Assembly: GCF_001269925.1 (NCBI RefSeq)
Contig: NZ_LHVO01000028.1
Coordinates: forward strand, 124,001 to 188,000
Length of the DNA: 64,000 bases
Reading direction: 5' to 3'
Source: Pseudomonas sp. MIACH
GTDB taxonomy: Bacteria; Pseudomonadota; Gammaproteobacteria; Pseudomonadales; Pseudomonadaceae
Below the pieces are notes generated by a model. That model was not told the origin of the DNA, did not search any database, and was given only the letters and a program-made list of their open reading frames with translations. Positions within the stretch are counted from its first letter, which is position 1. The number at the start of each line of letters is the position of its first letter. The position numbers and the translations under genes are program-made. Shown here piece after piece: positions 35,873 through 38,670 of this stretch.

Positions 35873-36361
35873 TCAATTGATTTTATAGCGACGACGTAAC
35901 CCGCGAAGGCCGAAACTGATCCACGGCCACAGCAGCGCACTGACCAGGGCCGGCAACACCAGCGCCAGGGTTGGCTGGCGGTTACCGGTCAAGGCACTGA
36001 GCCACAGCTGTACCAACTGCGCCAGACCAAAGATCACCAGGATCACCAGGCATTGCTGCCACATCGGGAACATGCGCAGGCGCTGCTGCAACGACAGCAC
36101 CAGGAAAGTGATCAGGGTCAGGATCAACGCGTTCTGGCCCAGCAAGGTGCCATACAGCACATCTTCCGCCAAGCCCAGGAACATGGCCGTGACCATACCC
36201 ACTTTATGCGGCAGGTTCAGCGACCAGAATGCCAGCAGCAATGCCAGCCACAGCGGACGCAGAATCTCCATGAACTGCGGCAGTGGCGAAACGCTGAGCA
36301 GCAAGCCGATGGCGAATGTCAGCCAGACGATCCAGCCATTGCTCGAATGAGTACCGGCCAT
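35873..36361 (-). CDS. mreD: MreD, rod-shape membrane protein
   Basis: A 162-residue integral membrane protein with about five hydrophobic segments, part of the elongasome with MreB, MreC, RodZ and RodA. Its ATG overlaps the mreC stop as TAATG, so translation of the two is coupled. Confidence 0.93.
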   Translation of the reverse strand: MAGTHSSNGWIVWLTFAIGLLLSVSPLPQFMEILRPLWLALLLAFWSLNLPHKVGMVTAMFLGLAEDVLYGTLLGQNALILTLITFLVLSLQQRLRMFPMWQQCLVILVIFGLAQLVQLWLSALTGNRQPTLALVLPALVSALLWPWISFGLRGLRRRYKIN

Positions 36362-37482
36362 TATTCCTCCCTCTGCCGTGTGGTTGCCGGGGCTGCGGCT
36401 GGAGGCTTCGCGGCAGGCGTCGTGGTAGCAGGTGTGGTGGCCGGTGGTTTCGCTGCCGTCGGCTTCACCGGTTGCGCGCTATGGGCCGCTGGTTTGACCG
36501 GTGTGGCCACGGGCGCGGTAGCTGCCGGAGTTGCCGCCGGTACAACGGGGGTAGTCGACTGAGGCTTGGGTACGGTCGCAGGAATGATCGGCGCAGTGCC
36601 GTTCTTCTTGTCTTCCGCTTCCTGGGCCTGGGCGGCGTCGTTGGCACGCTCTTCCGGAGTGCGATTGTCGCTGAACACCAGCAACAGGTAGCGGCTGCGG
36701 TTCAGGGCGGCAGTGGGCACGGCACGCACAATGGCGAAGGGCTGGCCGGAATCGTGGATCACTTCCTTGACCGTTGCCACCGGATAGCCTGCCGGGAACC
36801 GCTGGCCCAGGCCGGAGCTGACCAGCAGATCGCCTTCCTTGATGTCGGCCGTGTCCGCGACGTGACGCAATTCCAGGCGCTCAGGGTTGCCGGTACCGCT
36901 GGCAATCGCGCGCAAACCGTTACGGTTGACCTGCACCGGAATGCTGTGGGTAGTGTCCGTCAGCAGCAGTACGCGCGAGGTATAGGGCATCAGCTCGACC
37001 ACCTGGCCCATCAGGCCACGGGCATCGAGTACCGGCTGACCAAGCACCACGCCGTCGCGCTCACCCTTGTTGATGATGATGCGATGGGTAAAGGGGTTGG
37101 GGTCCATGCCGATCAACTCGGCTACTTCGACCTTCTCGTTGACCAGTGCAGAAGAATTGAGCAACTCGCGCAGCCGAACGTTCTGCTCGGTGAGGGCCGC
37201 CAGCTTTTGCATACGCCCCTGCAACAGCAGGTTTTCGGTCTTGAGTTTTTCGTTCTCGGCAACCAGCTCGGTGCGGCTGCCAAATTGGCTGGCCACGCCC
37301 TGGTAGAGACGTTGCGGCAGGTCGGTGATCCAGTAGGTCTGCATCAACACCAGCGACATTTGGCTACGCACCGGCTTGAGCAGTGCAAAGCGGGCATCGA
37401 CCACCATCAATGCGACCGAAAGCACGACCAGCACCAATAAGCGCACGCCCAATGAGGGGCCTTTGGCGAAAAGCGGTTTAAT
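36361..37482 (-). CDS. mreC: MreC, rod-shape protein, apparent ATT start
   Basis: Bitopic elongasome protein: a membrane segment near residues 12-30 (LGVRLLVLVVLSVALMVVDA), a coiled coil, the periplasmic beta domain, and a long Pro/Ala/Thr-rich tail. No ATG, GTG or TTG precedes the conserved N-terminus. An ATT at 37480-37482, six bases after GGGAGGAG, begins I/M-KPLFAKGPSLGVRLL, which aligns from its first residue with E. coli MreC (MKPIFSRGPSL). A TTG ten codons in (37452) lacks a good ribosome site and would remove the conserved start. An in-frame stop lies 12 codons upstream of the ATT. Confidence 0.85.
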   Translation of the reverse strand: MKPLFAKGPSLGVRLLVLVVLSVALMVVDARFALLKPVRSQMSLVLMQTYWITDLPQRLYQGVASQFGSRTELVAENEKLKTENLLLQGRMQKLAALTEQNVRLRELLNSSALVNEKVEVAELIGMDPNPFTHRIIINKGERDGVVLGQPVLDARGLMGQVVELMPYTSRVLLLTDTTHSIPVQVNRNGLRAIASGTGNPERLELRHVADTADIKEGDLLVSSGLGQRFPAGYPVATVKEVIHDSGQPFAIVRAVPTAALNRSRYLLLVFSDNRTPEERANDAAQAQEAEDKKNGTAPIIPATVPKPQSTTPVVPAATPAATAPVATPVKPAAHSAQPVKPTAAKPPATTPATTTPAAKPPAAAPATTRQREE

Positions 37483-37620
37483 AGGCCGCTCCTCCCAGGC
37501 AAATGTTCTCTTTATTCATACGGCATCTAACCGGCCTGGATGCAGATTGAAGAAGATAAACGCCAACAGGCAGCACTGCAAAGTGCTGCCTGCGGGCGAA
37601 ACATGGTGCAACCAACGATC

Positions 37621-38670
<1,050 letters not shown>

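Follow-up and report, generated by a model that had tools for sequence, protein, structure and literature searches.

The mreC gene of Pseudomonas sp. MIACH very probably starts at an AUU codon of a kind found in most sampled families of Gammaproteobacteria

To our knowledge, very few genes that start at AUU, AUC or AUA are known. Expression of E. coli pcnB, encoding poly(A) polymerase, is reportedly limited by an inefficient AUU start, as described by Binns and Masters in 2002. The AUU-start genes of E. coli were counted as two in the accessible part of PMC9410913. According to the accessible part of PMC5472188, non-canonical starts are repressed by initiation factor IF3; E. coli infC starts at ATT, which results in self-regulation, and the GTC start of sigR in combination with an extended Shine-Dalgarno (SD) sequence keeps the sigR product below its partner. 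Both genes were misannotated in databases (PMC5472188). Here we analyse mreC of Pseudomonas sp. MIACH, located in a stretch of 64,000 nucleotides that will be referred to as the window. This gene very probably starts at an ATT codon, one of the AUH codons (ATT, ATC or ATA in DNA; AUU, AUC or AUA in RNA). The features on which this reading is based are the following:

36361..37482, minus strand: mreC coding sequence, 373 amino acids counted from the ATT; Pfam PF04085
37480..37482, minus strand: ATT, putative initiation codon of mreC, based on the upstream in-frame stop, the ATT/ATC/ATA conservation and its place as first conserved codon
37489..37496, minus strand: SD GGGAGGAG, 6 nucleotides (nt) ahead of the ATT; anti-SD duplex of -10.2 kcal/mol
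37516..37518, minus strand: in-frame TGA, codon -12 relative to the ATT
37450..37452, minus strand: TTG, first canonical codon 3′ of the ATT, rejected as mreC start

The window protein, with the N-terminus IKPLFAKGPSLGVRLL, matched PF04085 (MreC) with an E value of 1.5e-42 and 146.9 bits against a cut-off of 28. The letters of the minus strand, read from the stop, are TGA ATA AAG AGA ACA TTT GCC TGG GAG GAG CGG CCT ATT AAA CCG CTT TTC, and no ATG, GTG or TTG occurs in the mreC frame between the TGA and the ATT. The frame is thus bounded without a usable canonical codon and a strong, properly spaced SD precedes the AUH codon, both of which are expected of a non-canonical start; in addition, a conserved start other than ATG, GTG or TTG is one of the features of the type repressed by IF3. 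The open reading frame (ORF) listed by the program begins ten codons past the ATT, at the TTG. Reading the window letters confirmed the initial annotation, which had proposed the ATT as start because of the TGA, the lack of canonical codons behind it and GGGAGGAG six bases ahead; the match to the N-terminus of E. coli MreC, which it had also claimed, is in line with E. coli K-12 mreC beginning with ATG AAG CCA ATT TTT.

Conservation of the codon was analysed in several sets of loci. In the near relatives (the best 80 of 436 relatives, from named genomes and obtained with a query beginning at the ATT), codon 1 of mreC was ATT in 80 of 80, each with an SD before it, and a stop was kept at the position of the TGA in 76. 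As this set is biased to near relatives, 67 Pseudomonas genomes were drawn evenly and all of them were read, 30 having already been returned as loci. All 67 carried an AUH codon (ATT 59, ATC 7, ATA 1, ATG 0). A sequencing error or a strain quirk is therefore ruled out, and the comparison of Pseudomonas mreC 5′ ends that the initial annotation had proposed as a check found the AUH codon and its SD conserved. ATG in close relatives, which the initial annotation had named as refuting its start, was not encountered in any of the 67 genomes.

For the order, 125 genomes were drawn evenly; mreC was detected in 122, all of which were read, and 109 N-termini could be aligned. Codon 1 was AUH in 86 of these, 73 of them without a canonical codon between the stop and the AUH codon, and the other loci showed ATG (11), GTG or TTG (2) or something else (10, eight with a canonical codon upstream). 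The rest of the Gammaproteobacteria was covered by 104 genomes under different family codes, one per family, of which 95 matched, 90 were read and 72 had alignable N-termini; three partial matches (G387, G355, G358) were left out, and G000 and G233 were counted in the order set. Here AUH was found in 49 of 72, with no upstream canonical codon in 46 of them, next to nine loci with a canonical codon 1 (7 ATG) and 14 others (10 with a canonical codon upstream). Together, 119 of the 135 AUH loci in the order and class sets are free of canonical codons between stop and AUH. N-termini were aligned by a profile beginning at residue 2, so that codon 1 was not part of the profile, and the 31 of 212 loci that could not be aligned were excluded from the fractions. 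Pattern hits and hand picks (L082-L086, L306-L309, L311 and L312, with no mreC match in L306, L311 and L312) were excluded from every count, and L310, of the same origin, was counted as its genome lies within the even genus draw. For 55 loci without an aligned AUH or canonical codon 1, the candidate with the best SD within six codons was AUH in 24 and canonical in 27, and four had none.

Named species for comparison were supplied by a protein search, and a plasmid DNA search yielded two records. Codon 1 is ATC in the P. aeruginosa record CP123788.1, and mreC starts with ATG in E. coli K-12, Proteus mirabilis and Aeromonas caviae. In Acinetobacter baumannii a GTG is located just ahead of the aligned codon, and in Legionella adelaidensis only GTGs occur, further upstream. 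As judged by these alignments, an AUH start of mreC is found in most sampled families of Gammaproteobacteria. Several of the counts weigh against it: codon 1 is canonical in 22 of the 181 aligned order and class loci, eight of the 109 order loci and 10 of the 72 class loci combine a non-AUH codon 1 with an upstream canonical codon, and even AUH loci contain an upstream in-frame canonical codon in 13 of 109 and 3 of 72 cases, respectively.

The alignment of the 181 loci bounds the start on both sides. In-frame stops were found at each of codons -12 to -1, in 3 to 23 loci apiece, and the gap between stop and AUH is at most two codons in 12 of the 135 AUH loci and at most four in 43. The absence of stops in codons 1-25 is a weaker point, as it arises partly by construction from aligning stop-free frames. 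Pairwise amino-acid identity was 0.06-0.14 before codon 1 and 0.57 at codon 1, followed by 0.59 at codon 2, 0.51 at codon 4, 0.98 at codon 5 and only 0.11 at codon 6. A match to AGGAGG in at least four of six bases was present in 128 of the 135 AUH loci, in 118 of them 4-8 nt before the AUH codon.

These data bear directly on the possibility that the codon encodes an internal isoleucine, merely conserved, in a protein that starts further upstream by a non-canonical start, a frameshift or read-through. The ratio of ATT, ATC and ATA among AUH loci (60:56:19) indeed resembles that of internal isoleucine codons (154:145:63), which is a point against an AUH start, 16 of the 135 AUH loci contain an upstream in-frame canonical codon, and an additional non-canonical AUH triplet, the ATA at codon -11 of the window, is kept in 72 of the 80 near relatives. 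Inspection by eye showed no GGAG-like sequence before this ATA, and the stop of other families is often nearer to the AUH codon than codon -11. An internal isoleucine is further contradicted by the narrow gaps between stop and AUH, by a frame without conservation upstream of it and by the good SD 4-8 nt ahead in 118 loci, and it leaves unexplained why ATG stands at the same place in 18 of 46 non-AUH loci. An upstream start or a frameshift was rejected since stops occur right up to the AUH codon, and we consider an internal isoleucine highly improbable.

The opposite alternative, a true start at a canonical codon further downstream (the TTG at codon 11 in the window or the annotated GTG at codon 17 in P. 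aeruginosa), is favoured by the annotation of CP123788.1, which begins at that GTG. The accessible text of PMC8137920, moreover, places both cytoplasmic residues and the membrane region within the first 14 residues of P. aeruginosa MreC, and its wording suggests that a short form served as reference. Its numbering seems to follow a truncated form, as the first 14 residues counted from the GTG comprise only the second part of the helix. A downstream start would cost the protein its cytoplasmic segment and some of the helix. Codons 2, 4 and 5 are conserved as protein. A strong SD was present at the first downstream canonical codon in 1 of 132 AUH loci, below the background of 4.1 percent, and in 47 of 135 that codon lies more than 16 codons on. 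A start at the downstream TTG or GTG was thus rejected on N-terminal conservation and SD, and there is very little chance that it is the true one; the objections of the initial annotation to the TTG, that it lacks a ribosome site and would cut into the conserved part, are in line with the aligned loci. With stops reaching codon 1, identity beginning there and the SD placed there, upstream and downstream starts are both unlikely, and mreC very probably starts at the AUH codon, ATT in the window.

For P. aeruginosa this means that the annotation in CP123788.1 would start mreC 16 codons late, inside the membrane helix; the SD energy is -2.5 at the annotated GTG compared to -6.9 at the ATC. Annotation can therefore truncate MreC, as seen in this record, where the cytoplasmic segment is lost together with some of the membrane anchor, and such a truncation affects constructs and residue numbering. 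Among the records labelled plasmid in the plasmid collection (CP123788.1; H4-H6, H8) are several of chromosome size and a P. aeruginosa mreB-mreC fragment of 1,131 bases.

To judge the approach, genes with expected starts were examined. In the window the gene order is mreB-mreC-mreD on the minus strand, both neighbours being identified by translation and position:

37621..38658, minus strand: mreB, upstream neighbour with an ATG start, identified by ORF translation and place; control gene
35873..36361, minus strand: mreD, downstream neighbour, identified by ORF translation and place; its translation was used as query

Of 138 mreB loci, given from the same long loci as mreC, 136 were aligned (one was unaligned and one had no usable match). 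The first aligned residue corresponded to ATG in 129 of them and to TTG in one, and the other six had an ATG one or two codons further upstream. The N-termini of mreD align poorly, with 29 matches unaligned and many more in which the first codon is shifted by one residue or a few, so that mreB is the only control of the two. As a gene with a known AUH start, infC was examined in 30 of the 55 class genomes with a match, on the basis of stops and SD. Only AUH candidates were found in 21 of 30, and the AUH codon was the candidate with the best SD in 26 of 30, five of which also hold a canonical codon (one of these mixed loci, L336, with a frame open for 501 codons, is uninformative); the remaining loci had GTG (1) or no candidate (3). 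In the mreB and infC controls, the approach recovered canonical starts for the gene expected to have them and AUH starts for the gene known to use them. In this genome infC starts at ATT; a tandem ATT ATT AAG follows GGAGTAATT, which makes it ambiguous which ATT is used.

The base composition of codon 1 bears on the question of selection. Among the 153 order and class loci with AT at its first two bases, the third base was T in 60, C in 56, A in 19 and G in 18. With 18/153, G is less frequent here than at the four-fold sites of codons 2-40, where it reaches 0.347 (Fisher P 3.9e-10), and in the class sample alone G was found in 7 of 56 loci compared to 0.342 (Fisher P 4e-4). On a rough tree, built from pieces of mreB and mreC minus codon 1 (185 rows, 136 AUH, 21 AUG), the minimum number of changes is 43 among ATT, ATC and ATA and 12 between AUH and AUG. 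The strength of the SD differed as well: the median anti-SD duplex was -7.1 kcal/mol for AUH loci (n=135) and -2.95 for ATG loci (n=18; P 8.5e-9), with 109 of 135 AUH loci but only 3 of 18 ATG loci at or below -6 kcal/mol. E. coli mreC fits this pattern with an ATG and a weak SD (-3.0). A weak codon with a strong SD and a strong codon with a weak SD can both be routes to a modest initiation rate, which suggests, on the basis of these comparisons, that evolution keeps MreC synthesis modest.

Some points weigh against this interpretation. The Fisher tests ignore relatedness, and with 12 or more changes to or from AUG required on the rough tree, the constraint on AUH is not absolute. The median SD of mreB, with its ATG, is also weak (-3.5), so that the combination of ATG and a weak SD is not peculiar to mreC, and the weak SD at ATG loci may simply reflect that AUG needs less SD. 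It might be argued from the same data that the AUH start is real but neutral, a strong SD being sufficient, with neither selection on MreC dose nor a role of IF3; the strength of the SD, a third base drifting freely among U, C and A, the at least 12 changes to or from AUG and the equal pairing of ATG with a weak SD in mreB would all agree with this. Against neutrality stand the approximately threefold depletion of G, compared with four-fold sites, at the third base and the finding that 0 of 67 Pseudomonas genomes have moved to ATG though one substitution is enough. Published reconstructions, in which switches from GUG to AUG (0.0398) are commoner than those from AUG to GUG (0.0059), indicate a pull towards AUG (PMC5622118, accessible part). 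We therefore regard a neutral AUH start as unlikely.

A conserved weak AUH start that limits MreC synthesis, discriminated by IF3, supported by a strong SD and kept across the class, is in our view the likely explanation. The third base of an AUH codon (AUU here) would mispair with the initiator tRNA, and this mispairing predicts weak initiation and discrimination by IF3. A strong, well-placed SD would render such a start usable, and the combination would have been kept in most sampled families because MreC needs a modest synthesis rate; the AUG lineages, mostly with a weak SD, may arrive at the same end by another route. What the comparison across loci brings out is the position of the start and its conservation, the interchange of AUU, AUC and AUA, the relative avoidance of AUG and the trade-off with the SD, from which we infer initiation with formylmethionine at a low rate, discrimination by IF3 and selection on MreC dose.

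The literature on non-canonical starts and on MreC dose led us to regard the AUH start as a conserved means of limiting how much MreC is made. In the accessible part of PMC7793260, about 180 endogenous copies of MreC per E. coli cell are cited, overproduction of MreC deforms the cells, and the balance of MreC and MreD governs the interaction of PBP2 and RodA. In the same source, the abundance of MreC in E. coli is cited as about double that of MreD and PBP2-RodA, which weakens the argument: low need not mean below MreD. The suggestion of the initial annotation that the ATT makes MreC synthesis sensitive to IF3 and tunes its dose would fit the codon class, the SD trade-off and this literature, with the difference that the published dose data concern the MreC:MreD balance and PBP2 (PMC7793260, accessible part), whereas the initial annotation had named MreB as partner. 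A more far-reaching and rather doubtful idea is that the ratio of IF3 to ribosomes, and with it the state of the translation apparatus, sets the amount of the elongasome activator MreC via the AUH codon and hence cell width and length across Gammaproteobacteria, with a hairpin that hides the SD and exposes the AUU in its loop adding to the effect in many Pseudomonas. If true, IF3-linked MreC synthesis would tie the shape of the cell directly to the fidelity of initiation.

Two structures were predicted by folding around the start in the window:

37468..37494, minus strand: predicted hairpin over SD and ATT, found in ATT-type Pseudomonas
37561..37598, minus strand: predicted stem-loop with a 12-base-pair core in the mreB-mreC gap

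In the first, GAGGAGCGG pairs with CCGCTTTTC, placing the SD in the 5′ arm and codons 3-5 in the 3′ arm and leaving the ATT in a loop of 9 nt (-13.7 kcal/mol over 34 nt, z -2.33). A fold at or below -10 kcal/mol was predicted for 52 of the 59 Pseudomonas loci with ATT (six others at -6.4 and one at -2.5) and for none of the seven ATC loci nor the ATA locus. All 80 near relatives encode leucine 4 by CTT or CTC, a count not corrected for kinship within the best 80 of 436, compared to 54.5 percent CTG and 4.6 percent CTT among the leucine codons of the rest of mreC; the rare CTT is retained at codon 4 in most ATT-type Pseudomonas. Class-wide, pairing of the SD with codons 3-8 is weaker than in synonymous redraws (mean z +0.42, 135 loci), so that a hairpin hiding the SD is unsupported as a general mechanism and is to be seen as a feature of this lineage, not as the reason for AUH.

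In all 80 near relatives, the gap between mreB and mreC includes a hairpin whose arm has 11 or more paired bases; in P. aeruginosa this gap is only about 30 nt long. A scan for consensus terminators did not call the mreB-mreC stem-loop, and Rfam gave a single sub-threshold match, located elsewhere. The stem-loop, predicted to be strong, could be an attenuator or a stabiliser of the mreB mRNA. A short ORF at 37478-37519 on the minus strand, of 13 codons and with the main form MNKENICLGGAAY, ends in a TAA that overlaps the ATT start (TATTAA), which is automatic given the ATTAAA at the start of mreC. All 80 near relatives have an ATG in its frame, and the ORF is 13 codons long in 76 of them and 20 in four (P. 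syringae-like). No clear SD was seen for this ORF, which is possibly a coupled leader or due to chance. In class locus L246 an apparent mreB stop lies a few bases ahead of the ATT, which may make coupling to mreB relevant in some lineages.

In the open-licence literature searched we found no report of a non-AUG start of mreC, and an earlier report elsewhere is possible. We know of no role of MreC in translation. The AUH start would be one retained by the majority of families in an entire class, and its gene serves cell shape rather than translation. As AUH and AUG differ by one base, the question of elongasome stoichiometry becomes testable through a one-base change, and conserved N-termini bounded by stops without a canonical start offer a route to more such genes.

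The closest parallel is infC, which like mreC combines an AUH codon with an SD, is deeply conserved and starts with ATT in this genome. It encodes the discriminating factor itself, so that its feedback loop is closed, whereas control of mreC by IF3 is what we infer. The pcnB gene shares with mreC an AUU start in a protein unrelated to initiation; its start was described for E. coli, in which mreC has ATG, while mreC carries AUH in most other sampled families. In Streptomyces sigR, a non-canonical start is likewise accompanied by an SD, here extended and conserved, and by misannotation, but its codon is GTC or GTT, is confined to one genus and was shown by experiment to be repressed by IF3 (PMC5472188, accessible part). 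Conserved AUH starts with an extended SD and an output below that of AUG are also described for Staphylococcus aureus cvfC1 (AUU) and ccpN (AUA) in the accessible text of PMC13009471; these were mapped by initiation profiling and reporters, the start of mreC by comparison only, but class-wide. By this comparison mreC appears to join the known class of non-canonical, probably IF3-discriminated starts, among which the depth of its conservation would be unusual and its function unexpected.
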